Below are positions 42,007 to 60,601 of a stretch of 64,000 nt of DNA, piece after piece. This DNA comes from Hyphomicrobiales bacterium. GTDB taxonomy: Bacteria > Pseudomonadota > Alphaproteobacteria > Rhizobiales > Rhizobiaceae. The stretch is from assembly GCA_900489925.1 (NCBI GenBank), contig UEHQ01000009.1:374598-438597 (forward strand), given 5' to 3'. Below the pieces are notes generated by a model. That model was given only the letters and a program-made list of their open reading frames with translations, was not told the origin of the DNA and did not search any database. The first letter of the stretch is position 1. Each line of letters begins with the position of its first letter. The position numbers were made by a program, and so were the translations under genes.

Positions 42007-43917
42007 TCACATAGGTAGACCGCCGAAGCCTCTCTTGCGCAATGCCGCAGCGATTTCCTCAAGCACGACGGGATCGTCGATCGTCGCCGGCATTTTCCAC
42101 GGAACGCCGTCGGCGATCTTCTGGATCGTCCCGCGCAATATTTTGCCCGACCGAGTCTTGGGAAGGCGGTCGACGGCAATCGCAGTTTTGAAGCAAGCGA
42201 CGGGTCCGATTTCATCGCGGATTAGTTTCACCACTTCCGTTTCGACGACAGATGTTTCCCGTGAAACATGCCGCTTCAGCACCAGAAAGCCGCATGGGAC
42301 CTGCCCCTTGAGCGGGTCGGCGATACCGACGACAGCGCATTCGGCAACATCCGGGTGCCGCGCGCAGACTTCCTCCATGGCGCCGGTTGAAAGCCGATGG
42401 CCGGCACAGTTGATGATGTCGTCCGTGCGCGACATGATGAAGAGATAGCCATCTTCGTCGACGTAGCCCGCGTCTGCCGTTTTGTAGTAGCCGGGGAACT
42501 CGTCCAGATACGCGCTCCGGAACCGCTCGTCGGCTTTCCACAGCGTCGGCAGACAGCCGGGCGGAAGCGGAAGCTTCACCACGACGTTGCCTAGGATCCC
42601 CGGCGCAACACCGTGCCCGCCATCATCGAGAACCTGTACCTCATATCCGGGCATCGGCACTGATGGAGACCCGTGTTTGACCGGCAATGCCTCAAGCCCC
42701 AGCGGATTGGCGGCGATCGGCCAGCCTGTCTCCGTCTGCCACCAATGATCAATGACGGGCACGGAGAGCATCTGTTCGGCCCATTTCAACGTCTCCGGAT
42801 CGGCGCGCTCGCCGGCAAGGAAAAGTGCGCGAAAACCGGGCATCGGGTGTGCCCTTATATAAGCGCCGTCCCCATCTTCGCGCCGGATCGCTCGAAACGC
42901 AGTTGGCGCCGTGAAAAGCACCCGAACATTATATTCCGACACGATACGCCAGAACGTACCGGCATCGGGCGTCCCCACAGGTTTCCCTTCGAAGAGAACC
43001 GTCGTAACGCCGGCGAGCAGCGGGGCGTACACGATGTAGGAGTGCCCCACGACCCAACCGATGTCTGACGCCGTCCAGAACACTTCGCCCGGCTTCATTC
43101 CGTAGATGTTCATCATCGACCAGTTGAGAGCGACCATATGACCGCCATTGTCGCGCACCACGCCCTTGGGGTGGCCAGTCGTCCCTGAAGTGTAAAGGAT
43201 ATAAAGTGGATCCGTCGCTTTGACGGAGACACACGCGATATCCGCTCCGCGATTGCCAGCAACGACCACTTCAAAGTTATGATCGCGACCCGGAACAAGA
43301 TCAGCGCGAAGCTGCGGACGCTGAAGAACGAGGCAATGATCTGGCTTGGATCTGGCAATTGTAATGGCGCTGTCGACAAGTGGTTTATAGGCAACGACCC
43401 TGCCAGGCTCCAGGCCACAGCTTGCGGTGATGATTAGTTTCGCCTCCGAATCATCCAGCCGTGCCGCGAGCTCGCTGGCCGCGAAACCGCCGAACACGAC
43501 GGAGTGAATTGCCCCGATGCGCGCGCAGGCAAGCATCGAGAACACCGCCTCCGGCACCATCGGCATGTAGAGGACAACACGATCGCCCTTCGTAACCCCA
43601 AACTGACTCAGTGTAGCGGCTATGGATTTCACATGGGCGAGCACATCGTCATAGCTGAAGGCCTGTTTTGCACCGGAGACAGGGCTGTCATAGATGAGCG
43701 CCGTTTCACTGCCCCGTCCTGCCAAGACATGACGATCCAGGCAATTGTAGCAGGTATTGGTTTCGCCGCCGGCGAACCAGGTCCCGTAAGGCCCGCTGCC
43801 AGCGTCGAAGATCCGTTCGGGTAGCGTGAACCAGTCGATACCTTCCGAGGCCTTACCCCAAAAGCTTACTGGATCCTGCTTCCACTCCGAATAGGTTTGC
43901 CGATAGCTACGCCGCAT
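42007..43917 (-). CDS. prpE: Propionyl-CoA synthetase
   Basis: A 636-residue AMP-forming acyl-CoA synthetase activating propionate, related to AcsA but closer to PrpE (start RRSYRQTYSEWKQDPVSFWG; FDAGSGPYGTWFAGGETN). ATP loop YTSGTTGHPKGVVRDNGGH and the catalytic-Lys region [19 protein letters not shown] are intact. ATG 43917 is chosen because GGAGGAG lies a few bases before it; the frame is open further upstream to 44157 but that overlaps the end of the neighbouring gene. A parS-like site lies inside the coding sequence at 42253-42268, encoding HVSRETS. Confidence 0.94.
   Translation of the reverse strand: MRRSYRQTYSEWKQDPVSFWGKASEGIDWFTLPERIFDAGSGPYGTWFAGGETNTCYNCLDRHVLAGRGSETALIYDSPVSGAKQAFSYDDVLAHVKSIAATLSQFGVTKGDRVVLYMPMVPEAVFSMLACARIGAIHSVVFGGFAASELAARLDDSEAKLIITASCGLEPGRVVAYKPLVDSAITIARSKPDHCLVLQRPQLRADLVPGRDHNFEVVVAGNRGADIACVSVKATDPLYILYTSGTTGHPKGVVRDNGGHMVALNWSMMNIYGMKPGEVFWTASDIGWVVGHSYIVYAPLLAGVTTVLFEGKPVGTPDAGTFWRIVSEYNVRVLFTAPTAFRAIRREDGDGAYIRAHPMPGFRALFLAGERADPETLKWAEQMLSVPVIDHWWQTETGWPIAANPLGLEALPVKHGSPSVPMPGYEVQVLDDGGHGVAPGILGNVVVKLPLPPGCLPTLWKADERFRSAYLDEFPGYYKTADAGYVDEDGYLFIMSRTDDIINCAGHRLSTGAMEEVCARHPDVAECAVVGIADPLKGQVPCGFLVLKRHVSRETSVVETEVVKLIRDEIGPVACFKTAIAVDRLPKTRSGKILRGTIQKIADGVPWKMPATIDDPVVLEEIAAALRKRGFGGLPM
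42253..42268. promoter_or_regulatory. parS-like site inside prpE
   Basis: TGTTTCCCGTGAAACA, 15 of 16 matches to the parS palindrome TGTTTCACGTGAAACA. It is the farthest of the five sites from oriC (about 16 kb). Confidence 0.8.
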
Positions 43918-43999
43918 TTTCTCCTCCCCAGGATATGCGCCTTGAGCCGTCAATCTAGGGAAGAGACCGGGAGAGAGAAAGCCCGACGAAAGCAGCGGG

Positions 44000-44662
44000 T
44001 CAGCGCGCGCCGAAAATAGCGGAGCCGACGCGGACGCTGGTCGCACCGAAAACCACCGCGATCTCATAGTCGCTGGACATTCCCATCGATAGCTTTCCCA
44101 CACCGCACTGCTTCGCAAGCTTGGCAAGGAGAGCGAAATGCGGGCCTGGATTTTCATCAGCGGGAGGGATGCACATCAGCCCCTCGATCTCCAGGCCAAG
44201 CTCGTCGCGGCACAAGGCAACGAAAGAGAGGGTGTCGTCAGGTGCGATGCCGGCCTTCTGAGGCTCTAGACCGGTGTTCACCTGAATATAGAGGCGAGGG
44301 CTCTTCCCCTGGCGCTTTATTTCTTCAGCAAGCGCGCGAGCGATCTTCTCGCGATCGACCGTTTCGATGACATCGAACAGCGCGACGGCTTCTGCCGCCT
44401 TGTTCGACTGTAGCGGTCCGATGAGATGCAGCTCGATACCCGGAGTTTCGGCTTTCAGTTCGGGCCATTTTCCCTGGCTTTCCTGAACCCGGTTTTCACC
44501 GAAGACGCGCTGTCCGGCAAGGATTGCGGGTCGAATCGCGTCTGGGTCAAATGTCTTGGAAACAGCTACGAGTCCGACGGAGCCTGCTGCTCTGCCGGCG
44601 TCCCGCTCTGCCTTTGCGATCCGCGCGCGTACATCGTCCAATCGCTCGTGAAGTTCCATCAT
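44000..44662 (-). CDS. YggS-family PLP-binding protein (PLPBP)
   Basis: A 220-residue single-domain TIM-barrel protein of the alanine-racemase N-terminal fold. It binds PLP through Lys36 in LVAVSKTF; FGENRVQE, HLIGPLQSNK and the C-terminal LSMGMSSDYEIAV followed by GSAIFGAR are all standard. The family maintains PLP homeostasis and has no clear enzyme activity. The tandem ATG at 44662/44659 is the chosen start; the frame extends to 44680 without family similarity. It is on the same strand as prpE, 82 bp upstream of it, and divergent from leuS. Confidence 0.95.
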   Translation of the reverse strand: MMELHERLDDVRARIAKAERDAGRAAGSVGLVAVSKTFDPDAIRPAILAGQRVFGENRVQESQGKWPELKAETPGIELHLIGPLQSNKAAEAVALFDVIETVDREKIARALAEEIKRQGKSPRLYIQVNTGLEPQKAGIAPDDTLSFVALCRDELGLEIEGLMCIPPADENPGPHFALLAKLAKQCGVGKLSMGMSSDYEIAVVFGATSVRVGSAIFGAR

Positions 44663-44857
44663 TGCGCCTCGGCAGATCATCGGGAAGAATGGCTATGCAC
44701 TAAACGCCCCGCCCGCGGTTGCCAAGGGCCGACCTCTCGAAATATCGCTCGGCGGCCGTGATCGCGCGCTTAAAGCGGCCGCAAAACTTGACGCTACCGT
44801 GGTTTCATGGTGAAGGTCAGGACCAACTTCCCTTGATTTTCCGGAAATACGAATACG

Positions 44858-47488
44858 ATGGCTACCGAACGTTACAACCCGCGCGATGCCGAGCCCCGCT
44901 GGCAGCAGAAGTGGAACGAGAAGAAGGTTTTCGAGACCGACAACAGCGATCCGCGCGAGAAATACTACGTGCTGGAGATGTTCCCGTATCCATCCGGTCG
45001 CATTCACATGGGGCATGTCCGCAACTATGCCATGGGCGATGTCGTTGCGCGCTACAAACGGGCGCGCGGATACAACGTGCTGCACCCGATGGGGTGGGAC
45101 GCTTTTGGCATGCCGGCTGAAAACGCCGCGATGGAGCGCGGCGTTCATCCCGCGTCCTGGACATACCAGAATATCGCATCGATGAAGGCACAGCTGAAGG
45201 CCATGGGCCTTTCGCTCGACTGGAGCCGCGAATTCGCGACCTGCGATGTCGCTTATTACCAGCACCAGCAGCACCTCTTCGTCGACTTCCTCGAGAAGGG
45301 GCTGGTCTATCGCAAGCAATCGAAGGTGAACTGGGATCCGGTCGACAATACCGTGCTTGCAAACGAGCAGGTGATCGACGGTCGCGGCTGGCGCTCGGGC
45401 GCCCTGGTCGAGCAACGCGAACTTACCCAGTGGTTCTTCAAGATCACCGATTTCAGCCAGGACCTCTTGGACGCATTGGACACGTTGGACCAATGGCCCG
45501 AGAAAGTTCGGTTGATGCAGAAGAACTGGATCGGCCGGTCGGAAGGCATGACGATCCGTTGGGAGATCGTCGGCGAAACGGCACCCGCTGGTCAAACCGA
45601 GGTGACGGTCTATACGACCCGCCCCGATACGCTGTTCGGCGCATCCTTCCTGGCAATCTCTGCCGATCATCCGCTCGCGAATGAAGCCGCGGCAAAGAAT
45701 CCGGCTATCGATGCCTTCTGCGAAGAATGCCGCCGTGCCGGCACATCGCTTGCCGCGCTCGAAACGGCGGAGAAGAAGGGTATGGACACGGGCATACGCG
45801 TCCGCCACCCGCTCGACCCATCATGGGAACTGCCCGTTTACGTCGCCAATTTCGTTCTCATGGACTACGGAACCGGCGCCATTTTCGGCTGCCCTTCCGG
45901 CGACCAGCGCGACCTGGATTTTGCGCGCAAGTACGATTTTCCGGTTGTTCCGGTTGTCATGCCGCAGGATGGCGATGCCGCCACCTTTAGCGTCGGCGAT
46001 GTTGCCTATGATGGCGACGGCGTGATGATCAACTCGCGTTTCCTCGATGGCATGAGCACCGATGACGCATTCAATGCGGTTGCTGAACGTCTCTCCGCAG
46101 CATCCCTCGGGAACGCGCCGCAAGGTGAACGCAAGATCAATTTCCGCCTGCGCGACTGGGGTATTTCCCGTCAGCGTTACTGGGGCTGCCCGATTCCGGT
46201 GATCCATTGCGACGATTGTGGTGTGGTGCCGGTTCCGAAAAAGGACCTCCCGGTCAAGCTTCCCGATGACGTGACCTTTGACCAGCCGGGCAATCCGCTC
46301 GATCGGCATCCCACATGGCGCCACGTCGCTTGCCCGCACTGCGGCAAGGATGCGCGACGGGAAACCGACACGATGGATACCTTCGTTGATTCGAGCTGGT
46401 ATTTCACGCGTTTCACCGCGCCGTGGGAGACTAAGCCGACGGATCCATCTGCCGCCAACCACTGGCTGCCGGTCGACCAGTATATCGGCGGTATTGAACA
46501 CGCCATCCTGCATTTGCTCTATTCGCGCTTCTTTACCCGCGCGATGCGGGAGACCGGTCACGTCGACGTCAAGGAGCCTTTCAAGGGCCTCTTTACGCAA
46601 GGAATGGTCGTCCACGAAACCTACAGCCGTGGCTCGGGAATGAGCCGTGAATGGGTTTCCCCGGCCGATATCCGTATTGAGGAACTGGACGGCGCGCGGC
46701 GCGCGTACCTGCTGTCCAATGGCGAGGAGATCGCGATCGGTTCGATCGAGAAGATGTCGAAGTCGAAGAAGAACGTGGTTGATCCCGACGATATCATCGC
46801 GTCCTACGGTGCGGATACGGCGCGATTCTTCGTATTGTCGGACTCGCCGCCCGAGCGCGATGTGATCTGGTCGGAGGCAGGCGTCGAGGGTGCGCATCGA
46901 TTTACGCAGCGGCTTTGGCGCCTGATTTCGGAAGCAGCTGCGAACCTTCGAGACGTCGCTGCGACTCCGGCTAAGGATGGTGATGCGGTTGCTATTTCGC
47001 AGCTGGCCCACCGGACCTTGAAGGCCGTTCAGAATGACTACGACAAGCTGTGGTTCAACAAGGCAGTCGCGCGCATTTACGAACTCGTCAACGCTCTCGC
47101 AGCCCCATTGACGAGGGTCGCTGGTGGCGAAGGCAACGAAGCCTATCGGGCCGCTGTGCGGGAAGCTGCGGAGATTCTGATTCAACTCGTGGCCCCTATG
47201 ACCCCACACTTGGCGGAAGAATGCTGGGCCACGCTTGGCAACAGCAGCTTGCTCGCACAGACATCTTGGCCGAGCTATGACGATGCGCTTGTCGCCGAAA
47301 ATGAAGTGGTTCTGCCCGTCCAGATCAACGGGAAAAAGCGCGCTGAATTGACAATTTCCCGCGACGCAGATCAGAATACAGTCAGCGAAAGCGCGCTTGC
47401 TTTGGATGATGTGAAGAGGGCGCTGAACGGGCAGGCGCCGAAGAAAATCATCGTGGTTCCGCAAAGGATTGTGAACATTGTCGTTTAA
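44858..47488 (+). CDS. leuS: Leucyl-tRNA synthetase
   Basis: An 876-residue class I synthetase. The HIGH-type motif is HMGH (residues 50-53) in [15 protein letters not shown] and the KMSKS loop is at residues 632-636. The connective editing domain with [16 protein letters not shown] and a zinc-finger-like CxxC...CPHC region are present, as is the C-terminal anticodon-binding part ending in [15 protein letters not shown]. Length is normal. The start ATG 44858 has only a weak ribosome site. lptE begins inside its last codons. Confidence 0.98.
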
Positions 47489-47999
47489 TCTCGCTCAGAA
47501 GCTGGTGCGCTGCACCGGTATTGCCACGGTGCTTGCGTCCACGATCCTCGTTGCATCCTGCCAGGTACGTCCGCTGTATTCCGAAAGCTCTGGCGTGACG
47601 GAAAAGCTATCGTCCGTCGGCTTCTCCGAAGCGACCAGCCGCGTCGAGCAGGAAGTGCGGAACCGTCTGATTTTCCTGGCGTCCAGAGGCGCCGGAGAGC
47701 CGGATAATCCGCAATACGAGGTTGAGATCAATGCTCACTCGGACGTCATCAATACGCTTCTTGTCGAGTCGTCCGATACGTCGCGCGCGGGTCGCGCGAC
47801 GGTCAGCGTAGACTATACGCTGAAGGCGACGAAAGACGGCCATGTGATCAAGGCCGGAAATCGCTACGCCACGGCGCTCGTGGACTTCCCGCGTCAGGAA
47901 TTCGCCAAGGCCCGGGCAATCCGCGATGCCGAGGACAGGGCGGCTCGTGAGGCTGCCGAGTTCGTCGCTGCTGACCTTGCGGCGGCCCTTGGCCGCTGA
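47478..47999 (+). CDS. lptE: LPS assembly lipoprotein LptE
   Basis: A 173-residue outer-membrane lipoprotein that plugs the LptD channel for lipopolysaccharide insertion. A lipobox LVASC ends the signal peptide at about Cys28, and the mature part begins with the family's QVRPLYS. The C-terminal helix [23 protein letters not shown] fits LptE. The gene starts with TTG at 47478, 11 bp inside leuS, with AAGGA 9 bases before it. holA follows after 11 bp. The leuS-lptE-holA order is widespread in bacteria and supports the call. Confidence 0.9.
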
Positions 48000-48010
48000 G
48001 GAGCGGGCGA

Positions 48011-49045
48011 TTGGCCGAGATCAAATCGCATGAGTTCGAGGGATTTGCGGAGAGATCCGCCCGTAGCTACAAGCTCTTTGTAGTCTACGGTCCCGATCGC
48101 GGGCTCGTTTCAGAACGAGCTTCGATTCTTGCCGAGAGAACCGGCGTCGCGCTGAAAGATCCTTTTTCCCTTATCAAGCTCGATATTGCTGATTTGCAGC
48201 GCGATCACGGACGCCTGGTCGATGAGGCCGGCGCGATCGGCCTGTTTGGTGGCGACAAGCTGCTCTGGGTCCGGGGCGCTGCAAACGAGAAATATCTGGT
48301 CGACGCGCTACAGTTTCTCGCGGAATCCCCGCCGGCAGGGACGTTCGTCATTATAGAAGCAGGCGACCTGAAAAAGGGCTCGCTTCTGCGAAAGGCGGCG
48401 GAATCATCCCGCAACGTTATCGCGATTCCTTGCTATGCGGACGACACCCGCGCACTGAACGCTCTGATCGATTCAGAGCTTTCCGCTGCGGACCTTCGCA
48501 TCACCCCCGACGCCCGCCAGGCGCTCCTGGAATTGATCGGTGGTGACCGCATTGCCTCCCGCAACGAACTGAAGAAGCTGGCGCTCTATTGTCGGGGGCA
48601 GGGGAGCATCGAAGAGCACCACGTCACAGAGATCATTGGCGATGCGAGCGCCATCTCGGTCGATGATGCCGTCGACGCGGTGTTGAGCGGCAACGCCGCC
48701 AACTTCCTGCATGCCATGCAGAAGATCATCTCATCGAAAACCGCGATCTTCCTGGTCATCCAATCATGCCTGAAGCAATTCCAGCTGATGGACGCGATCA
48801 GGGCGGAGATGGATGAAAAACGGATCTCGTCAACCCAGGCGCTGCAGACACTTGGCAGGCATCTGCATTTTCGGCGCAAGCCGATCGTAGAACAGGCCCT
48901 CCGGGCATGGTCACCGGAGGCGATCGCACGCGAAACCAACCGACTACAATCGGCGGTCCTTCAAACGCGTAAGCGCGCCTCGCTGGAGGACACCATTGCA
49001 CTCCACACTCTGCTGTCAACGACGCTGCAGTCCGCGCGCCGGTAG
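48011..49045 (+). CDS. holA: DNA polymerase III delta subunit
   Basis: A 344-residue clamp-loader subunit that opens the beta clamp. It shows the delta fold: an AAA-like N-terminal part (YKLFVVYGPDRGLVSERAS, then FGGDKLLWVRGA), and a helical C-terminal region (GGDRIASRNELKKLALY, RKRASLEDTIALHTLLS). It starts with TTG at 48011, with GAGGAG 8-12 bases upstream. It follows lptE by 11 bp and ends 5 bp from the convergent parB stop, with no terminator in between. Confidence 0.93.
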   Translation: MAEIKSHEFEGFAERSARSYKLFVVYGPDRGLVSERASILAERTGVALKDPFSLIKLDIADLQRDHGRLVDEAGAIGLFGGDKLLWVRGAANEKYLVDALQFLAESPPAGTFVIIEAGDLKKGSLLRKAAESSRNVIAIPCYADDTRALNALIDSELSAADLRITPDARQALLELIGGDRIASRNELKKLALYCRGQGSIEEHHVTEIIGDASAISVDDAVDAVLSGNAANFLHAMQKIISSKTAIFLVIQSCLKQFQLMDAIRAEMDEKRISSTQALQTLGRHLHFRRKPIVEQALRAWSPEAIARETNRLQSAVLQTRKRASLEDTIALHTLLSTTLQSARR

Positions 49046-49050
49046 CAGCG

Positions 49051-49932
49051 TCAGCGGCGTTCCAGCAGACGGCAAATCTCTTCGAGTTGCTCCAGAGACT
49101 TGTAAGAGATCCGGATCTGCCCGCCGCTTGCCTTGTGATTGATGGTAACATCAAGCCCAAGCGTATCAGAGAGCGTCCGCTCGAGGGCAAGCGTATCGGA
49201 ATCCTTTTGGTCGCGCTGTGCACCAGTCCGCGGCTCGGACTGAGCCTTGATATCGTTCTGTGCTAGTCGCTCCGCGTCACGCACGGACATCCCCTTGGCA
49301 ACGATGGCCCGAGCAAGGGTGGAGGGGTCCGAGGTCGGCACGAGCGCACGCGCATGACCGGCGGAAAGGCTTCCAGCCGCGAGGAGGTCGCGAACAGGTT
49401 CGGGCAGTTTCAACAGTCGCAGGGAGTTCGCGACGTGACTACGACTCTTGCCGATAATCTCGCCAAGATCGTTCTGCGTATAGCCGTATTCGGCGATCAG
49501 TTGTTCGTAACCCAGCGCTTCTTCAAGCGGATTAAGGTCGGAGCGCTGAACGTTTTCCACGATAGCGATCTCGAGCGCCGTTTTGTCGTCCACATCGCGG
49601 ACGACAACGGGAACTTCGACGAGCCCGGCCAACTGAGCCGCGCGCCAACGTCGTTCGCCGGCTATGATTTCATACTGGTTGGCCGAAAGCGTCCGCACCA
49701 CGACCGGCTGAACGATACCGTGCTGTCGAATAGAACTCGCCAGATCGTGCAATTCGCTGTCATCGAAGAAGCGCCGCGGGTTTCTCGGATTGCGGCTGAT
49801 GAACTCGATCGGGATCAATCTGTCCGCGCTGACAGGGGACTTCTCTGAGTCTACCGCGACTGGTTGATCCATCTCGCCGATCAATGCGGCAAGACCGCGC
49901 CCAAGTCTTCTCTTCGAGACATCATCGTTCAT
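49051..49932 (-). CDS. parB: Chromosome partitioning protein ParB
   Basis: A 293-residue CTP-dependent DNA clamp that loads at parS and spreads. The N-terminal LGRGLAALIG (residues 10-19) is the ParA-contacting motif; the CTP-binding boxes are NPRNPRR (48-54) and GERRWRA (92-98); the helix-turn-helix is YTQNDLGEIIGKSRSHVANSLRLL; the C-terminal dimerisation domain ends LEEICRLLERR. It lies 31 bp downstream of parA in the same operon. Five parS sites are within 10 kb. Confidence 0.97.
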   Translation of the reverse strand: MNDDVSKRRLGRGLAALIGEMDQPVAVDSEKSPVSADRLIPIEFISRNPRNPRRFFDDSELHDLASSIRQHGIVQPVVVRTLSANQYEIIAGERRWRAAQLAGLVEVPVVVRDVDDKTALEIAIVENVQRSDLNPLEEALGYEQLIAEYGYTQNDLGEIIGKSRSHVANSLRLLKLPEPVRDLLAAGSLSAGHARALVPTSDPSTLARAIVAKGMSVRDAERLAQNDIKAQSEPRTGAQRDQKDSDTLALERTLSDTLGLDVTINHKASGGQIRISYKSLEQLEEICRLLERR

Positions 49933-49963
49933 TGTCTAACTCGCCACTAATTTCAGTTAGGTG

Positions 49964-50758
<795 letters not shown>

Positions 50759-50777
50759 GCTGTATTGCCCGATCCCG

Positions 50778-51395
50778 TTAAACCAAACGCCGAAGGTTGG
50801 ATATTTCCAATATCACCGAGTCCTGCTCGACGGCGCTTCCATGTTCTACCAGATCGAATGTCCAGCGACCATGTGCTTTCGCAATCTCTGCCCGGTAATC
50901 CCGGCCTTTATGGAGATACGCTCGCAGTTTTTCATTCTTGGCCGCCCAGGGATTGAAGTAGGCAAATAGCTGATCCAAGTCAGCAAGAGCGCGTGCTGAA
51001 ATGAAATCGCAATCCGGGACGGCCGCTGGTGCGTCTTCAATGCGGATCGGATGGACTGAACCACGCGCGCCCATCTCCCTCAACGCCGTACGCAGAAACG
51101 CAGCCTTCTTGTGATTGCTCTCGATGAGATGCACCCAGCCATCACCAATTTCTGCCAAAAAGATGGCAGTGATCACCCCGGGAAAGCCGCCGCCGCTCCC
51201 GAGATCAATCCATGTCTTGGGCTGATCCTGGAGCTGGAAGATCTGGGCACTATCCGCGACATGACGCCGCCATGCGTCCTCAACCGTCGATGGTGCCGTC
51301 AAGTTGATCGACTTGGCCCACTTTTGAAATAGGGATACGAAATCCTTCAGGCGCTGTTCTGTTTCACGTGAAACACGCCGGCCGTTTAACTCCAT
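50778..51395 (-). CDS. rsmG: 16S rRNA (guanine-N7) methyltransferase
   Basis: A 205-residue SAM enzyme that makes m7G527 in 16S rRNA (E. coli numbering). Motif I is [13 protein letters not shown] (about residues 67-79); [12 protein letters not shown] marks the second SAM-binding strand. The ATG at 51395 gives [14 protein letters not shown], and the VSRET codons are the perfect parS site. It is the middle of mnmG-rsmG-parA-parB. Confidence 0.95.
51360..51375. promoter_or_regulatory. Perfect parS site inside rsmG
   Basis: TGTTTCACGTGAAACA, an exact 16-base palindrome matching the bacterial parS consensus. It overlaps rsmG codons 8-12 (Val-Ser-Arg-Glu-Thr). Confidence 0.95.
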
Positions 51396-51429
51396 CGGTG
51401 GACTCTCATATAGTGTATTATCTGAACGC

Positions 51430-53292
51430 TTAAGCTGCGGCAGTGAGCCGCCGCAGCTGCACGAGAAGAAGCGAAATGGCTGCCGGCGTCATACCATCTA
51501 CTTTCATCGCCTGCGCAATGTTGTAGGGCTTCGCCAAACGTAACTTTTGCTTTAACTCGTTCGAAAGCCCTGACAGGCAATCGAAGTCAAAATCGTCGGG
51601 AATCACGCGGTCTTCGTCGCGCTTGACATGCTCAATATCCGACGATTGGCGCGCCATATAGACCGCATAGTTCGCCTCGATTTCGAGCGCTTCGCCAACT
51701 CGACCATCAATCGCTGACAGCTGCGGCCATAGCCGTTTCAACACATCAAGGGAGAAATCAGGATAGGACAACAGCTCATAGCCGGTACGTCTCTGCCCAT
51801 CCATGTTCAACTTCAGACCTGCGTCCCGCGCTGCATTTGGGGTCACCTTCAAGGAAGACAACAGTGCGCGACCGGCATCGAGGTCCGCCTTATACGCTTC
51901 AAACATGCGTCTGCGCTCAGCGGAGATGCCGCCGAGACCGATGGCAAATGGCGTCAATCTCACGTCTGCATTATCAGCCCGCAGAGAGAGCCTATATTCT
52001 GCCCGCGAGGTAAACATCCGATAAGGTTCCGCGACACCTCTGGAGGTCAGGTCGTCGATCATCACACCAATATACGAGTCCGTCCGACTGAACCGGACTG
52101 CATCCTGTCCACCGGACAACCGCGCGGCGTTAAGGCCCGCGACCAGACCCTGTGCCGCGGCTTCCTCATAGCCGGTTGTCCCGTTGATCTGACCCGCCAG
52201 GAACAGGCCGGACACCTTCTTGACCTCAAGCGATGGTTTCAACTCGCGCGGATCAACGTGATCGTATTCGATCGCATAGCCCGGCTGAAGAATCTCAACG
52301 TGTTCCAAGCCGGGGATTGTATGGATAAACGCATCCTGGACCTCCGCTGGCAGTGAAGTCGAAATGCCGTTTGGATAAACCGTATCGTCATCCAGGCCCT
52401 CTGGCTCCAGGAATACCTGATGGCCATCACGTTCACCGAATTTGACCAGCTTGTCCTCAATCGAGGGGCAATAGCGAGGCCCGACACCCTCGATTTGACC
52501 GGAATACATCGCAGAACGTTTCAAATTCTCGACAATGATGCGGTGCGTCGCGTCGGTGGTCCGCGTCACGCCACAATCGATTTGCGCATTCCCAATGTGG
52601 GTCGTCATGAAAGAGAAAGGAACCGGATCCTCATCCGGACCCTGCCGGCCGACACTGGCCCAATCGATCGTCTTGCCATTTAGGCGAGCAGGCGTGCCCG
52701 TCTTCAGTCTGCCGAGCCGGAGATCAAACCGCAGAAGCGTTTGCGAAAGCCCGACCGACGGTTCCTCACCAACACGACCTGCCGGTATCTTCCTATCCCC
52801 AATATGGATGAGACCACGCAAGAACGTTCCTGTCGTGAGGACAACCGATCCGCAGCCAAGAATCCGGCTATCTTTCATAACGACCGCTTCTACACGGCCG
52901 TCCTTGATCGATAGATCAAAGGCGTCGCCCTCGATAACGGTGAGATTTTCTATTGCCTCAATCTCTGCCAGCATCGCCTGCCGATAGAGCTTCCGGTCTG
53001 CTTGCGTCCGTGGACCACGCACCGCCGGTCCCTTCTTGCGGTTCAGCATTCGGAACTGGATACCTCCAGCGTCTGCGACGCGGCCCATCAGACCATCCAG
53101 TGCATCAATCTCACGGACGAGATGACCCTTACCGAGACCACCGATCGCCGGGTTGCAAGACATAACACCGATGGTGTCTCTTCTGTGTGTGACCAGCGCA
53201 GTCCTGGCGCCCAGACGCGCCGCCGCGGCTGCAGCTTCGCATCCCGCGTGTCCGCCACCGATAACGATGACATCAAACCGAGAGGTATCCAT
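51430..53292 (-). CDS. mnmG: tRNA uridine 34 carboxymethylaminomethyl modification enzyme MnmG
   Basis: A 620-residue FAD enzyme, partner of MnmE, that makes cmnm5U34 in tRNAs. The FAD-binding [17 protein letters not shown] is at residues 12-28; [22 protein letters not shown] and [17 protein letters not shown] are signature segments; the helical C-terminus binds tRNA. A second nucleotide site is in the N-terminal half. It lies 34 bp upstream of rsmG and 111 bp downstream of mnmE; two parS sites occupy the mnmE-mnmG gap. Confidence 0.98.
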
Positions 53293-53350
53293 TTTTTCAA
53301 GGCTCCTGAAGTGTCCCGGTGATGAGCGAAGTTGGTGCGTGAGTCAAGGG

Positions 53351-53366
53351 TGTTTCACGTGAAACC
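53351..53366. promoter_or_regulatory. parS-like site between mnmG and mnmE
   Basis: TGTTTCACGTGAAACC, 15 of 16 to parS; intergenic. Confidence 0.88.
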
Positions 53367-53390
53367 GCATTACCGATGCAGGCACCTTGA

Positions 53391-53406
53391 TGTTTCACGT
53401 GAATCA
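53391..53406. promoter_or_regulatory. parS-like site at the mnmE stop codon
   Basis: TGTTTCACGTGAATCA, 15 of 16 to parS. On the minus strand it begins with the mnmE stop codon TGA. It is 40 bp from the neighbouring site, about four helical turns. Confidence 0.85.
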
Positions 53407-54720
53407 TTTGCCGATACAGAATTCACCGAAGATCACATCAAGAAGATTCTCGACATCGACACGACCCGTAACGCGCCCAAGGGCTTCACTCGCGATGCGC
53501 AGATCCTCTGCTCTAAGGTCGAGTCCGCGTGAGGGCGACTGTATCGCTGCATCAACAGCGTGCAAGCATTGCGAAAGCGAGTCGACATGTCGCGTCCGGC
53601 TGGGAATTGCCATTGAACTCGGATGTACTTTGTCCTTCAACCGTTGGCCGATTGCAAGTCTAAGCTCGTCCAATCCCAGCCCCTGCTTGACCGAGACCAG
53701 CAGGTCATACTGCCGCTCGCTGCTCGCCGGGAGGTCTGACTTCGTCCCAACAAGGAGTGCGTCTGCAGGCAACGTCTGGACAGAAGAGCGGAGGGATTGG
53801 TCCTCTAGATAGAGTACGAGATCGGCCTGGCTGATGACTGCCTCGGCGCGCCTGATACCCTCCCGCTCGACACTTTCAACCGTCTCGCGCAAGCCGGCGG
53901 TATCGAATAGTTTCACCAGATACCCGTCGATATTGAGATCAGTTTGCAGAACATCGCGCGTCGTGCCCGCAATATCGGTAACGATGGCGACATCTCTGCG
54001 CACCAGCGCATTCATCAAGCTCGACTTGCCTGCGTTGGGTTCGCCTGCAATGACAACTTTGAAGCCATCCCGAATAATCTCGCCGGTGGCCGCCTCATGC
54101 AGATGAGCCGCGATCTCGCGCGCCAGTCGCTGCATATCCAGCCAGACGCTGTCCGAGACAGAGCCCGGAACGTCGTCTTCATCGGGAAAATCAAGCTCCG
54201 CCTCGATGAGAGCGCGGCCGCGGGTCAGTCGATCTGCCCATGAATTGTAGAGCGCGGAGAGCCCGCCGGAACTATGCTCCATCGCCAAGCGCCGCTGCAT
54301 CTCTGTCTCTGCTGCTATAAGATCAGCCAGGCCTTCGATCTCGACCAGGTCCAGCTTGCCGTTCTCAAACGCCCGTCGGGAGAACTCGCCGGCCTCGGCC
54401 TGCCGAACATTCTCGAAAGTATTGAGCTCCCGGTGTAATGCCTCGACGACAGCACGGCCACCGTGCAGATGAATTTCCGCAACATCTTCGCCCGTGAATG
54501 ATCTGGGACCAGGAAAGAATAGGATCAGGGCGCTGTCGAGTTTGATTCCGTTACGAGTCCGAATCGTTCGCAATGTTGCCTGTCGCGGCGAGGCGGGGAT
54601 ATGTCCCGCCAAGCTGGTGAGCACCGCAGAAGCTTCGCGACCGCTCACGCGCATAACGGCGACCCCGGCCGGCACCGAACCGCTGGAGAGTGCATAAATC
54701 GTGTCAGTGGATCTGATCAT
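53404..54720 (-). CDS. mnmE: tRNA modification GTPase MnmE
   Basis: A 438-residue homodimeric GTPase, partner of MnmG. The N-terminal formyl-THF-binding domain begins [23 protein letters not shown]; the G domain has Walker [10 protein letters not shown] (226-234), the switch [15 protein letters not shown] and the base-binding TKSD; the C-terminal CIGK carries the conserved Cys. ATG 54720 fits the known N-terminus; the frame extends to 54768 without similarity. Confidence 0.97.
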
Positions 54721-54821
54721 CGTCTTTGTCCATCCGGTTCGAAGCCGAATCGAATACCGAAACTTCACTCAGCCAGCCCTTGGCCGACTTGGCGAGTTGC
54801 GGAAACGACCCTCCTAGAAAC

Positions 54822-54852
54822 GATAAAGCCGACCACTCTCGTGATCGGCCTT
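54822..54852 (-). terminator. Intrinsic terminator after rho
   Basis: On the minus strand, AAGGCCGATCAC-GAGA-GTGGTCGGCTTT, a stem of about 12 pairs with one G-T wobble and a short T-run at the end. It lies 23 bp beyond the rho stop. Confidence 0.75.
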
Positions 54853-54874
54853 AGTAGGTGAATCCGGCTAAGGA

Positions 54875-56140
54875 TTAGGTGTTCATCGAGTCGAAGAAAT
54901 CTGGATTGTTCTTCGTCTGCTTCAGCTTGTCGATGAGGAACTCGATCGCATCTGTTGTACCCATCGGTGCAAGGATGCGGCGCAGCACGAAAATCTTCTG
55001 AAGATCCTGGCGTGGAACAAGCAGGTCTTCCTTACGTGTGCCGGATTTCAAGATATCCATCGCCGGGAAGATGCGCTTGTCCGCGACCTTGCGATCCAGG
55101 ACGATTTCCGAGTTACCGGTACCCTTGAATTCTTCGAAGATAACTTCGTCCATTCGGCTGCCGGTATCGATCAGCGCCGTCGCGATGATGGTCAGCGAGC
55201 CACCTTCTTCGATGTTACGTGCCGCACCGAAGAAGCGCTTGGGGCGCTGCAGTGCATTGGCGTCAACACCACCGGTCAACACCTTGCCGGAGGAAGGAAC
55301 GACTGTGTTGTAGGCGCGACCGAGACGCGTGATCGAATCGAGCAGGATGACAACGTCGCGACCGTGCTCGACAAGACGCTTCGCCTTTTCGATCACCATT
55401 TCGGCGACCTGAACGTGGCGCACTGCCGGCTCGTCGAAGGTAGACGAAATGACTTCGCCGCGAACCGATCGCTGCATGTCGGTCACTTCTTCAGGACGCT
55501 CGTCGATCAAGAGCACGATCAGGTAGCACTCTGGATGATTCGCCGTGATCGAATGCGCAATGTTCTGCAGCAGGACGGTCTTACCGGTGCGTGGCGGCGC
55601 CACGATCAGGCCACGCTGGCCTTTACCGAGCGGAGCGACGAGATCGATCACACGCGGTGACAGATCCTTGGACGTGGGAACGTCGAGCTCCATCTTAAAA
55701 CGTTCGTTCGGGTAGAGCGGCGTCAGATTGTCGAAATGAACCTTGTGCCGGATCTTCTCCGGATCATCGAAATTGATCGTGTTGACCTTCAGCAGTGCGA
55801 AGTACCGCTCGCCTTCCTTCGGACCACGGATCGGTCCTTCGACCGTATCCCCGGTCTTCAGCGAGAACCGGCGGATCTGCGACGGAGAAATATAGATGTC
55901 GTCAGGACCCGGCAGATAGTTCGCATTCGCGGAACGCAGGAAGCCAAATCCGTCCTGGAGAACCTCAACGACACCCTCACCGATGATCTCAACATCCTGG
56001 CTGGCCAAAACCTTCAGAATGGCAAACATGAGCTCCTGTTTGCGCATCGTGCTCGCATTCTCGACCTCGAGCGATTCGGCAAAAGCCAGCAGATCCGTCG
56101 GGGATTTACTCTTAAGTTCCTGAAGCTTCATTTCAGCCAT
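54875..56140 (-). CDS. rho: Transcription termination factor Rho
   Basis: A 421-residue hexameric RNA helicase. The N-terminal helical domain ([19 protein letters not shown]) is followed by the cold-shock-like RNA-binding domain with [17 protein letters not shown]; the ATPase domain has Walker A PPRTGKT (182-188), LIDERPEEV and the Q/R-loop regions. Length matches alphaproteobacterial Rho. It lies downstream of hemJ after a 181-bp gap, which leaves room for its own promoter and an autoregulatory leader. Confidence 0.98.
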
Positions 56141-56321
56141 GAAGTGACCAATACTCTATATTTCTGAGGGGAGAGGCGATGCGAGGACAGTAACCGGTCC
56201 TGCGAAGAGTCCGCAGACGATCGAACTTTACATACATGCCACAAGGATGAGGTGAAGCGAAAATAGCGGCTCACGCGCAATGCCGCAAGGGGGCTGCTTA
56301 AAATGAAAGAAATTTAACCGA

Positions 56322-56858
56322 TCAGAACGGCTTCACCACGACGAGAATGACGATCGCGATCATCAGCAGCGTCGGCGCCTCGTTCATGAACCGCCAATAG
56401 CGCGCCGAACGTCGATTTTCATCCCGCTCGAAAGCCTTGGCTGCGCGGCTGAAGAAGACATGTACGCCAGTCAACAGCACAACCAAGCCTAGCTTGGCAT
56501 GCAGCCAGCCGCCCTGAAAACCATAAACGGACCAGGCAAGGTATAGGCCGAAGATCCACGTCAACATCATTGCCGGGTTCATGATCACCTTGAGCAATCT
56601 CCGCTCCATGACCTTGAACGTCTCCGACTGAATGGAGCCTGGCTCTGCATCGGTATGGTAGATGAACAGGCGCGGCATGTAGAAGAGCCCGGCCATCCAC
56701 GAGATCACCGCAATCACATGGAGCGCCTTGATCCAGAGGTAGAGGTCATCAGGATTCCACGCGAATAGACCGACCGCGATCAAGACGAAGAAAACGATCG
56801 CGAAATAGGCGCGACGTCGGGCATAGGAACCCGGCCGCTCATCGATCTGCCGCGCCAT
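56322..56858 (-). CDS. hemJ: Protoporphyrinogen oxidase HemJ
   Basis: A 178-residue membrane protein with four predicted helices. HVIAVISWMAGLFYMPRLFIYH carries the conserved His and Arg, and MERRLLKVIMNPAMMLTWIFGLYL and GWLHAKLGLVVLLTGVH the conserved Lys/His region of HemJ (formerly UPF0093). It oxidises protoporphyrinogen IX in haem synthesis in bacteria lacking HemY/HemG. It lies 3 bp downstream of hemE, so both haem genes are in one operon. Confidence 0.92.
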   Translation of the reverse strand: MARQIDERPGSYARRRAYFAIVFFVLIAVGLFAWNPDDLYLWIKALHVIAVISWMAGLFYMPRLFIYHTDAEPGSIQSETFKVMERRLLKVIMNPAMMLTWIFGLYLAWSVYGFQGGWLHAKLGLVVLLTGVHVFFSRAAKAFERDENRRSARYWRFMNEAPTLLMIAIVILVVVKPF

Positions 56859-56861
56859 CTG

Positions 56862-57896
56862 TCAGCGTCCTCCGCTGCGAACGCGCTCGACGAGCAGGCG
56901 AACGTTTTCAGGATCCGCCTGAGGCGTAATACCGTGGCCAAGATTGAAGATCAGCGGGCCGCTTCCGAGCCGCTGCAGAATGTCGTCGATACCTTCCGAC
57001 AAAGCCGCCCCGCCTGCAACGACCCGCATTGGATCTAGGTTGCCCTGCACGGGTCCATCCTTCTGCAGCTCGACCGCGAAATCCAGCGGTACCGACCAGT
57101 CAAGCCCGATCGCCTCCGCCCCAGTCTTCTGCCGGTAATCCTTCAGGAGATAGCCGGCGCCCTTCGCGAATGCGATCACGCGTGCCTTCGGCCGCCGGGC
57201 CTTCACCGACGCGATCATCCGCGCAACCGGCGCGACTGCGTAAGCAGCAAATTCCCGCTGGCCCAGCACACCCGCCCAGGAATCGAAGATCTGCACAGCG
57301 TCCGCACCAGCATCGATCTGCGAAACCAGATAGTCCGCAGAAATATCGGCCAGCACCGCCAGAAGACGCTCGAAGGCTTTCGGGTGCTTATAGGCAAACA
57401 ATCGCGCCGGCGCCTGATCCGGCGTTCCGTGCCCGGCAATCATATAGGTCGCGACCGTCCAGGGGGCCCCACAGAAGCCCAGCAACGTCGTTTCGTCAGG
57501 AAGCTCGAGCCGCAGCCGCCGAACCGTCTCCATGACGGGCGCAAGGTGCTCCATCACAGGTGCCACATCCAATCGCTCGATACCGCCGACATCAATCGGA
57601 TCCATCTCCGGTCCATGTCCTTCGGTGAAACGAACATTCCGTCTCATGGCATCAGGGATAACCAGGATATCGGAGAAAAGGATCGCCGCATCGAATCCGT
57701 ATCGCCGTATCGGCTGAAGCGTCACTTCGACTGCGTGCTTCGGCGAATAACAGAGATCGAGAAAGCTCCCGGCTTTTGCGCGAACTTGCCTGTATTCGGG
57801 AAGGTAACGCCCTGCTTGCCGCATCAGCCAGATCGGGGGAGGGCTCAGTGTTTCGCCCTCGAGCACTCGTAAGATTTTCCGCCGCGTTCCGCTCAA
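56862..57896 (-). CDS. hemE: Uroporphyrinogen decarboxylase
   Basis: A 344-residue TIM-barrel enzyme converting uroporphyrinogen III to coproporphyrinogen III. The signature [16 protein letters not shown] is near the N-terminus (about residues 21-36) and [13 protein letters not shown] is in the middle; the catalytic Asp lies in ILFSDIL. It starts with TTG at 57896. It marks the left edge of the origin region, in the same place and direction as hemE at Caulobacter and Sinorhizobium origins. Confidence 0.97.
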
Positions 57897-58050
57897 GCGC
57901 TTCTTCCCTATAAAATCTAAAGATATTTAAAGAGGTTTCTATTTCTTAGAGTCGGTGACTATCAAGGATTAAAATCCATCCACGGACGATACGATTTGTC
58001 GCGCCACGCCGAAGTTGCGCGAACGAAGAAAGAAAGCTCTGCCGCGACTT

Positions 58051-58059
58051 TGGGGATAA
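58051..58059 (-). promoter_or_regulatory. DnaA-box-like site
   Basis: TGGGGATAA, the complement of TTATCCCCA, one mismatch to TTATCCACA, in the predicted origin. Confidence 0.5.
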
Positions 58060-58115
58060 CACTGAAACGGTCTTAGATTTCAATGCGATGAAGCCTACCG
58101 CAATATGCACCTGGT

Positions 58116-58124
58116 TGTGGACAA
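58116..58124 (-). promoter_or_regulatory. DnaA-box-like site
   Basis: TGTGGACAA, the complement of TTGTCCACA, one mismatch to the consensus, in the predicted origin. Confidence 0.6.
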
Positions 58125-58205
58125 GTACTGCATATCTGTGTGCCTTGTGCAAACTTTCCACAAAAGTCACAAGTGCCGCCGGAGCCACGTCACAAGAATC
58201 CGAAA

Positions 58206-58214
58206 TGTGGAAAA
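58206..58214 (-). promoter_or_regulatory. DnaA-box-like site
   Basis: TGTGGAAAA, the complement of TTTTCCACA, one mismatch to the consensus, in the predicted origin. Confidence 0.55.
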
Positions 58215-58299
58215 CTAGGCATGTTTTCCCTTGCCTTGACCCGGGCCGGTCTCGTAGCTCTCCCTTATCCAGTCTTTTCAACAGGCATCGGAAAATATC

Positions 58300-59121
58300 G
58301 TGGAGAATCGGCCGAACTTCTTCCATTTGCACCTGATTTCTGACTCAACAGGAGAGACTCTGATCTCCGCCGGTCGCGCCGCTTCCGCGCAATTCAAGTC
58401 CGCCCAGCCTGTCGAACATGTCTATCCGCTGATCCGAAATCGAAAGCAGCTCCTGGCCGTGTTGCAGACGATCGACGGTGAACCGGGCATCGTCCTCTAC
58501 ACGATCGTCGATCGGGAGCTCGCCGCGCTGATTGATGAGCGATGCGCGGAAATGGGTGTGGCTTCCGTCAACGTGCTGGAACCAGTCCTCAACGCATTCC
58601 AGATCTATCTCGGCGCGCCCTCGCGTCGCCGGGTCGGCGCCCAACATGTCATGAACGCCGGATATTTTGCTCGCATCGAAGCGCTTAACTTCACCATGGA
58701 TCATGATGACGGCCAGATGCCCGATGACTATAATGACGCCGACGTCGTTATTATAGGTATCAGCCGTACGTCGAAAACGCCGACCAGCATCTATCTCGCC
58801 AACCGCGGCATTAAGACGGCCAACATTCCGATCGTCTACGGCGTGCCTCTTCCCGAGAGCTTGTTCTCGGCGACCAAGCCGCTGATCGTCTGTCTGATCG
58901 CGACCACCGACCGCATTTCGCAGGTCCGTGAAAATCGCGTTCTCGGAACTACGTCGGGCTTCGATCGTGGCGACTACACGGATCGCGCGGCCATATCCGA
59001 GGAACTCAAATATGCGCGATCACTGTGTGCGCGACATAACTGGCCGTTGATCGACGTGACGCGACGCTCGATCGAAGAGACGGCGGCTGCAATCGTTGCT
59101 CTTCGGCCAAAGCTGCGTTAA
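58300..59121 (+). CDS. DUF299 pyruvate, phosphate dikinase / PEP synthase regulatory protein
   Basis: A 273-residue bifunctional kinase/pyrophosphorylase that switches PPDK or PEP synthase on and off by ADP-dependent phosphorylation and phosphate-dependent dephosphorylation. The N-terminal [15 protein letters not shown] and the P-loop-like GISRTSKT (residues 153-160) followed by [10 protein letters not shown] are diagnostic. It starts with GTG at 58300. This is the gene called RP001 at alphaproteobacterial origins. No PPDK gene is in the window, so the target is inferred from the family. Confidence 0.93.
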
Positions 59122-59151
59122 GCGCTGAACGTCTATCGCCGCGGAGGTTTT

Positions 59152-59751
59152 ATGACAGCCAGACTCATCCTTGCATCCTCCAGTCCGTTCCGGCGAATGC
59201 TCATGCAGAATGCCGGCGTGTCGTTTGATGTTCATCCGGCCCAAATCGATGAGCGCGCTGTCGAAGCGCCGCTCGAGGCTGACGGCGCGACGCCAGATGC
59301 CATTGCCCTTGTTCTTGCGAAAGCCAAAGCGCGGGAAGTGAGCAGTCGTTTCCCTGATGCATTGGTCCTCGGGTCGGATCAGACGATGTCACTCGGAAAG
59401 CGGACGTTTCACAAACCCAGGGACATGAAAGATGCGGCCGATCACCTGAAGGCGCTTCGCGGAGCGACGCACCGGCTGAATAGCGCGATCGCACTCGCCC
59501 TGGGTGGCGATATCATATGGGAGCATATCTCGCACGCCGAATTGACGATGCGCATGTTCAGCGATGACTTCATACAACGTCATCTCGGTCGCGTCGGAGA
59601 CAGAGCGCTTGCAAGCGTCGGGGCCTATCAGCTTGAGGGGGAGGGACTGCAGTTGTTCACGAAGATAGAAGGCGACTATTTCACGATATTGGGCCTTCCC
59701 ATGTTGCCCCTGTTGGAGAAGCTGCGTGAACTGGGTGCGATCGATGGATGA
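59152..59751 (+). CDS. maf: Maf-family nucleotide pyrophosphatase
   Basis: A 199-residue protein with the Maf start [18 protein letters not shown] and the later VLGSDQTM and [16 protein letters not shown] segments with the catalytic Asp/Glu/Lys set. Maf enzymes hydrolyse non-canonical or modified nucleoside triphosphates and were linked to division arrest in Bacillus. It is 30 bp behind the DUF299 gene, and its last 8 bases overlap aroE. Confidence 0.92.
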
Positions 59752-60601
59752 TTCACGTGAAACATTGGCTCCGAGAGCGTTTGTCACCGGCTACCCCGCC
59801 AAACATTCCCGGTCGCCGCTGATCCATGGCCACTGGCTGAAAACGCTTGACCTTCAGGGCAGCTATCAGGCTTACGAGGTAAAGCCGGAGGATTTTCCCG
59901 CCTTCATGAACGCTTTGAAAAGTGGCGAGTCTGGCTTTGCCGGCGGTAACGTCACAATCCCGCACAAGGAAATGGCGTTCAAGCTCGCCGATGAGCCGGA
60001 TGAGCTTTCGGAAGAGCTCGGAGCCTCGAATACCCTTTGGATCGATGACGGCCGCCTCAAAGCGACCAACACCGATGGCCGAGGATTTACAGCCAATCTC
60101 GACGAGCGCCACCCCGGCTGGGACAAGGCGACGTCGGCCGTCATCCTGGGCGCCGGCGGGGCAAGCCGGGCTATCATCCAGGCTGTTAGAGATAGGGGCT
60201 TTTCAGAGATCCATGTCGTCAACCGCACCGTTGACCGCGCGGCGGAACTCGCCGATCGCTTTGGGCCGAAGGTCTATGCTCACCCGATCGCCGCCCTCGG
60301 CGAGGTCATGAAAGGTGCCGGCCTGTTCATCAACACGACATCTCTCGGCATGGACGGTGAAAGCGCACCGCAGATCGATTTCTCTCCGTTGCAGTCGGGC
60401 GCGGTGGTGACAGATATCGTTTACGTGCCGCTCAAGACACCTTTCCTCAAGCAGGCAGAAGAGCAAGGCTTCGCCATTGTCGATGGCTTGGGCATGCTGT
60501 TGCACCAGGCTGTTCCAGGTTTCGAAAAGTGGTTCGGCCAGCGGCCGATCGTGACCGAGGAACTTCGGTCGCTGATCATCGCGGATATGGAAAGACACTG
60601 A
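59744..60601 (+). CDS. aroE: Shikimate dehydrogenase
   Basis: A 285-residue NADPH enzyme of the aromatic amino-acid pathway. Shikimate-binding SRSP is at residues 22-25 and the catalytic Lys75 is in NVTIPHKE; the nucleotide-binding GAGGASRAI and [14 protein letters not shown] follow. ATG 59744 is chosen because it fits the usual N-terminal distance and overlaps the maf stop (ATGGATGA). The first codons, DDSRET, are a parS-like site. Its stop overlaps the coaE ATG by one base. Confidence 0.95.
59749..59764. promoter_or_regulatory. parS-like site at the maf/aroE junction
   Basis: TGATTCACGTGAAACA, 15 of 16 to parS. It begins with the maf stop codon and covers aroE codons 2-7. It is the only site on the right arm of the origin in this window. 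Confidence 0.85.

Follow-up and report, generated by a model that had tools for sequence, protein, structure and literature searches.

Described origins beside hemE and the Rhizobium gap

The chromosomal origin of Sinorhizobium meliloti was reportedly described by Sibley et al. in 2006. The origin of Caulobacter crescentus, Cori, has the same flanking genes as the locus considered here and belongs to the same length class (404 bp; PMC1914354). Cori combines an AT-rich region with DnaA boxes (PMC8959179) and GANTC motifs (PMC3973325), all of which recur at our locus, but it also has five CtrA boxes (PMC8959179, PMC1914354), whereas the Rhizobium gap has none. The S. meliloti origin, from the same family as our locus, is like it in this respect, as neither a CtrA motif nor CtrA binding is reported there, and an indirect, unknown mechanism was proposed (PMC4433202). 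For Brucella, CtrA is cited as not binding to the origin (PMC2877005).

The window that we analysed, a stretch of 64 kb, sits on contig C45 (493,635 bp) of a 6.09-Mb genome assembled in 75 contigs, and the nearest named hemE matches, among the matches listed, are from Rhizobium. ORF calls and a profile search place a divergent gap of 403 bp at window positions 57897-58299, between hemE (uroporphyrinogen decarboxylase; 56862-57896, minus strand; PF01208, E 2e-110) and a DUF299/COG1806 kinase-pyrophosphorylase gene (PPSR, Kinase-PPPase; 58300-59121, plus strand; PF03618, E 1e-87). The original prediction, of a chromosomal origin in a 403-bp divergent gap between hemE and the DUF299 gene, was therefore right about the gap and its neighbors. 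It was also right that gene direction flips here, with the genes from hemE back to parB on the minus strand and those from DUF299 on to dnaQ on the plus strand. The GC content is 0.469 in the gap versus 0.591 in the whole window.

No tRNA or RNA family was found at gathering scores in the 64-kb window. A CcnA-like RNA, CcnA being an RNA of the Caulobacter origin, was considered for the gap. An open reading frame of 128 amino acids (57946-58332, minus strand) spans most of the gap, and we regard it as a chance occurrence because the middle of the gap is scarcely conserved: in the alignment of 105 gaps, positions 57987-58046 are nearly unconserved, a single column excepted.

Evidence for a chromosomal origin

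The gap was compared with loci from its own family, order and class. The family set joins at least 30 loci from one search, in which 58 of 61 genomes matched, with the best 80 of 589 from another, and 36 same-genus genomes were among those searched for it. These 110 loci (L002-L111, L002 being the window itself) presumably all fall within a single GTDB family. A divergent gap was obtained from 105 of them (none from L020, L073, L077, L090 or L093), and three more gaps were added later; the resulting 108 rows hold 103 distinct sequences, five pairs being identical. L108 and L099 were omitted from column and distance counts. The order set comprises 20 regions from 19 of the 21 matching genomes of other families, and the class set 64 of 67 other genomes with a match. 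Rows outside the gap-length limits (L241 and L261) or lacking hemE were dropped before motif, column and offset counts. One record in the family set (L091), titled Bacillus subtilis SK6B4, carries a Rhizobiaceae-type hemE and origin and must be mislabelled or contaminated.

The arrangement of the locus is widely shared. The gap measures 398-407 bp in 84 of the 103 distinct family sequences (range 378-515). Beyond the family, hemE and COG1806 diverge in 17 of the 20 regions of the order set and in 27 of 29 class-search loci (including L194, which is from the same order). They do so too in 31 of 40 further loci, made up of 27 of 35 from new genomes, three of three from Rhizobium and one of two re-fetched with longer flanks. 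Some of the loci that failed to show the divergent pair fall at contig ends.

DnaA boxes were scored by their mismatches to TTATCCACA. Three boxes with at most one mismatch lie in the gap, at 58051, 58116 and 58206, all on the minus strand. Boxes of this quality number 26 over 399 kb of contig sequence, or 0.026 per 400 bp; the gap is the sole three-box cluster in that sequence, three other clusters holding two boxes each. Individually the gap boxes are mediocre, as none is perfect, three have one mismatch and the rest have two.

Offsets of the boxes were counted from the PPSR start across the 108 family loci. The most conserved box is TTTTCCACA (58206-58214, minus strand, one mismatch, offset -94): 101 of the 108 loci have a box of at most one mismatch at that offset. 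By the same measure, a box is present at the offset of TTGTCCACA (58116-58124, minus, one mismatch, about -184) in 64 loci and at that of TTATCCCCA (58051-58059, minus, one mismatch, -249) in 17. Three weak boxes with two mismatches lie on the plus strand: CTTTCCACA at 58154-58162 (about -146; 22 of the 108 loci have a box of at most one mismatch there, and 48 one of at most two), TTATCCAGT at 58265-58273 (-35; 10 and 32) and TTTTCAACA at 58275-58283 (-25; 27 and 94). A motif scan of the gap gave one more two-mismatch box, on the minus strand at 58299. Family boxes with at most one mismatch also occur at -136 on the plus strand (27 of 108) and at -172 on the minus strand (14 of 108), offsets at which the window's own gap has no box. 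On the opposite strand, the same offsets served as controls and yielded no box with one mismatch and at most 1 with two.

At the offsets of the window's weak plus-strand boxes, some relatives have stronger ones, likewise on the plus strand, so the array uses both strands. At least three one-mismatch boxes had been noted, and these were found. The further claim that all boxes are on the minus strand is correct up to one mismatch and fails at two, where the plus-strand boxes at 58154, 58265 and 58275 appear. Similarly, clustering in the half away from hemE describes two of the three better boxes, the third (58051) lying in the hemE-side half, 154 bp from hemE.

A switch in cumulative GC skew at the gap had been proposed as a check. 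Over 399 kb of contig C45, in this assembly of 75 contigs, the cumulative minimum falls at window position 59191, 0.9 kb from the gap. Skew in relatives was sampled in 20-kb pieces from three single-contig chromosomes (17-20 points each), with the arms split at the locus. The contrast between arms is significant in two of the three, namely G018 (0.0042 versus -0.0192, p=0.002, 17 samples) and Rhizobium leguminosarum Norway (G175, the genome of L038; -0.0027 versus -0.0309, p=0.003, 20 samples). The third, G016, has no clear switch at the locus (-0.0035 versus -0.0193, p=0.24, 20 samples), and its best contrast lies about 0.3-0.4 Mb away. In two relatives (G018:C1 and G009:C2) the chromosome contig starts at or near this gap, a few hundred bases ahead of the PPSR gene, which looks as though the sequence had been opened at the origin.

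The segregation machinery is close by. The assembled genome has six parS-like sites at up to one mismatch. All are on contig C45, and five of them lie within 16 kb of the gap, spanning window positions 42253-59764 on both sides of it; the sixth is about 102 kb off, at C45 position 330805. A motif search found the perfect site at 51360-51375 and one-mismatch sites at 42253-42268, 53351-53366, 53391-53406 and 59749-59764. At up to three mismatches the window holds six sites, against 0.26 expected. The parB and parA genes, taken to serve origin segregation, are encoded on the minus strand at 49051-50758 (ParB_N, HTH_ParB and ParB_C; AAA_31).

Several features that mark a hemE/COG1806 origin were found together: the gene pair, a DnaA-box cluster that stands out in 399 kb, an AT-rich stretch, a skew switch, and parS sites with parAB. 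Skew, parS, box clustering, positional conservation and gene context all support the predicted origin, and we are close to certain, judging from sequence, that the gap at 57897-58299 is the oriC of a Rhizobium main chromosome. Alternatively, the gap could hold no more than a pair of divergent promoters and DnaA boxes grouped by chance, with replication starting at another site, for example beside dnaA; the unclear skew of G016 and the imperfection of every individual box in the window would fit this, but the skew minimum, the parS cluster and the family-wide fixed box positions oppose it, and we consider it extremely improbable.

A near-invariant block beside the weak duplex

The least stable 50-mer of the gap, by nearest-neighbor stability, is at 57901-57950, on the hemE side, where the gap had been described as AT-rich. 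Of all 50-mers in the 399 kb, just 0.017% are less stable, and this stretch is probably the duplex-unwinding element. Column conservation, scored in 105 loci and again in 106 rows, marks out a near-invariant block (57936-57971, plus strand) at the place of the unwinding module. In the alignment of 105 gaps the block of the window, at about 57936-57971, reads TTTCTATTTCTTAGAGTCGGTGACTATCAAGGATTA, and it consists of a T-rich run, a GANTC site and what is probably a decayed DnaA-box pair. In the Sinorhizobium/Ensifer loci (L052, L058 and L065) the gap is 406-407 bp long, the boxes stand at corresponding offsets, and the block is present. We found no description of the block in the passages from open-access papers that we searched, and we claim no novelty for it.

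The position of the block recalls the BUS, or DnaA-trio, arrangement of the Bacillus subtilis type (BUS: PMC10225481), in which a module likewise lies between the DnaA array and the weak duplex. A word search of the main text of a BUS survey (PMC8287927) gave neither "caulobacter" nor "rhizobi". Many class-level relatives have TNG repeats adjoining a TGTGGATAA-like box; such runs are seen on the hemE side in L195, L197, L209, L217 and L231, from other alphaproteobacterial orders. TNG runs (at least four of six) in the hemE half occur in 18 of 52 gaps from other orders (two on the other strand; 2.9% of shuffles), in 3 of 18 same-order gaps (none on the other strand; 2.0% of shuffles) and in 2 of 108 family gaps (one on the other strand; 0.8% of shuffles).

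The pattern CCTGTGGATAACGGGGATTA was written from such class-level origins. It is matched with at most 6 mismatches in 20 in 28 of 52 gaps from other orders and in 3 of 18 from the order, and no more than one of 30 shuffles equalled the match in 34 gaps of the former set and 4 of the latter; given how the pattern was made, these counts describe the origins and are not an independent test. In the window, the best match to CCTGTGGATAACGGGGATTA in the hemE-side 60% of the gap is at 57952-57971 on the minus strand, with 7 mismatches in 20, and is probably the relic of a hemE-side DnaA-box pair. The block differs from a canonical DnaA-trio BUS in two ways: TNG runs are at chance in the family, and the box in the window is decayed. 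A looser trio, [TA]A[GA], was not counted as evidence either way, given that it matches A-rich DNA on either strand and that, on the expected strand, family gaps and shuffles were indistinguishable by it: runs were found in 10 of 52 gaps from other orders versus 13 of 52 on the other strand, the sets were not separated, and the family's other-strand count (83 of 108 at four or more of six) reflects the shared block.

We infer that the block may be the altered form, particular to the Rhizobiaceae family, of a trio-plus-box unwinding module. L099, a locus from a Rhizobiaceae MAG (JALSIJ010000115.1), has TTATTATTATTGCCTGTGAATTACAG at this place, with a TTA/TTG run and a DnaA-like box instead of the GANTC block. 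Its state is perhaps older or early-branching, which is a guess from its divergence.

The left end of Escherichia coli oriC (13-mer R, GATC and box R1) presents its parts in the same order as the block, namely a T-rich repeat, a methylation site, a box-like motif and AAGGAT. When the block is aligned, with gaps, to the region between mnmG and mioC of E. coli, the best score is 36; shuffles average 24.4, and 2 of 500 did as well; as this is one post hoc gapped alignment, the likeness is only suggestive. The block differs from its E. coli counterpart in having GANTC rather than GATC and no good R1 box.

A different function for the block, as the promoter of hemE and possibly one of the GcrA/CcrM type rather than unwinding machinery, strikes us as possible but unlikely. 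Minus-strand TTGATA and TAGAAA hexamers lie 18 bp apart with the GANTC between them, and the genome encodes both GcrA and a CcrM-like enzyme; GcrA has been described as a methylation-sensitive regulator (PMC11514494), and in Caulobacter the transcription of hemE is described as important to replication (PMC8959179). However, the -35-like hexamer is not retained across the family (L087, L088, L089, L092, L095, L098 and L100). The distance of the block from the hemE start also varies more (SD 16.5, range 31-160) than its distance from the -94 box (SD 5.0, range 238-276), an argument that rests on a few outliers because both interquartile ranges are 2-3 bp. Finally, the block core occurs once exactly in its own genome, with three further hits at two mismatches (a reversed control pattern gave four hits) and no other copy at fewer than two mismatches, which speaks against a promoter of this kind. 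We also rejected the block as a general regulatory motif for want of a second copy with fewer than two mismatches. The GcrA family search, unexpectedly, scored above cut-off in the control genome Sulfolobus acidocaldarius as well.

Under the preferred reading of the block as an unwinding element, initiation could proceed as follows. DnaA would bind about six sites on both strands between 58051 and 58283, anchored by the conserved box at 58206, and the DnaA filament would extend toward hemE. The AT-rich stretch at 57901-57950 would then melt, starting at the conserved block (57936-57971), and the helicase would load at the melted stretch, with forks departing both ways. ParB on the nearby parS sites may segregate the new origins. 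CtrA appears to have no direct action on the origin DNA.

CtrA, CcrM and the GANTC site

A scan of the gap for TTAA-N7-TTAA gave no full site, the best candidates having two mismatches in eight, in agreement with the earlier remark that no CtrA site is visible. The suggestion attached to it, that without such sites replication may be controlled differently, is sound, and the lack of CtrA sites has already been published for Sinorhizobium. In raw counts, an exact CtrA site occurs in 3 of the 108 family gaps, in 6 of the 18 from the order and in 4 of the 52 from other orders; when one mismatch in eight is allowed, the counts are 29 of 108, 9 of 18 and 12 of 52. CtrA acts on ccrM in Caulobacter and in Agrobacterium (PMC6090056).

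The CcrM-type site in the block, GAGTC at 57949-57953, is found in 107 of 108 family loci and in 102 of 103 distinct sequences. In the aligned rows its G, A, T and C are each present in 106 of 106, and the N position is G in 102 and C in 4. In L108, where the automatic search had placed the block at a wrong site, the true block also contains GANTC. A second site in the gap, GAATC at 58196-58200, is little conserved. CcrM sites had been listed among the features of the gap and are indeed there; their total is unremarkable (2, against 0.63 per 400 bp on the contig), and it is the conservation of 57949 that stands out. Two tandem GANTC sites are present in the block of 22 distinct family sequences. 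In Ochrobactrum, Phyllobacterium and their kin (L087-L089, L091, L092, L095, L098, L100, L107 and L109) the two sites start eight bases apart, while Rhizobium has one.

GANTC is also frequent near hemE beyond the family. In the 18 gaps from other families of the order, the first 130 bp from hemE contain 32 sites, spread over 16 loci, where shuffles predict 12.6; in the 52 gaps from other orders they contain 53, spread over 34 loci, where 29.4 are predicted, whereas the rest of the gap is at 1.23 times expectation in the order and 1.28 times in the other orders. Of seven control palindromes, two were also raised: AGNCT in the first 130 bp of order gaps (1.9 times) and ACNGT in the rest of order gaps (1.85 times). 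A CcrM-like match was found in 65 of 70 genomes, so the presence of CcrM offers no contrast with the presence of GANTC at the origin; of the five genomes without a match, three carry GANTC in the first 130 bp.

The occurrence of GANTC in the origins of Caulobacter and close relatives has been noted in print (PMC3973325), and published experiments with CcrM speak mostly against a simple methylation switch at the origin. In minimal medium, Caulobacter lacking ccrM has a wild-type-like DNA content profile (PMC3973325), and in Agrobacterium tumefaciens the depletion or overexpression of CcrM changed ori2 and did not significantly change ori1 number (PMC11514494). On the other hand, Caulobacter cells that overexpress CcrM are cited as having additional chromosomes or an abnormal chromosome content (PMC3973325, PMC6090056). 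CcrM has been reported to open a bubble at its own site (PMC6787082), and a link between this bubble and origin melting is speculation.

These experiments bear on a passenger reading of the invariant GANTC at 57949, in which the block is kept for contact with a protein (DnaA on single strands, IHF or another) and methylation is idle; we give this reading an even chance. The two negative results just cited fit it, as does L099, where the GANTC is absent despite a CcrM-like enzyme in the same genome. Several block columns outside the GANTC are equally invariant in the 106 rows, so that invariance of the site alone is no proof of selection for methylation. The case for a role of the mark itself comes from the free N, which takes G or C while its four neighbors never vary, from the enrichment of GANTC in the hemE-side 130 bp beyond the family, above the rate in the rest of the gap, and from the overexpression phenotype in Caulobacter. 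The GANTC mark could control unwinding or hemE transcription, or it could simply fall inside the site of another protein.

From the perspective of the family, we put forward as a low-probability proposal that in Rhizobiaceae sensu lato (Rhizobium, Agrobacterium, Sinorhizobium, Brucella, Bartonella, Mesorhizobium and kin) a trinucleotide-repeat and good-DnaA-box unwinding module was replaced by a fixed element of 30-36 bp, with a CcrM site at the junction where DnaA would pass from double-stranded to single-stranded DNA. The methylation state of this site could then link CtrA, via ccrM, to initiation, and might be the indirect route by which CtrA restrains replication in S. meliloti.

An origin beside hemE is expected and ordinary for Rhizobium, and it sets the zero point of the chromosome. 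The unusual feature is a near-unchanging stretch with a methylation site at the place where the helix should first open. This block is nearly constant in a family that includes plant symbionts as well as animal pathogens, and it departs from the module of many other Alphaproteobacteria. Given its constancy, its departure from the usual module and its site for a cell-cycle methylase, the block is a precise, small target for the question of how initiation is limited in these bacteria without CtrA on the origin.
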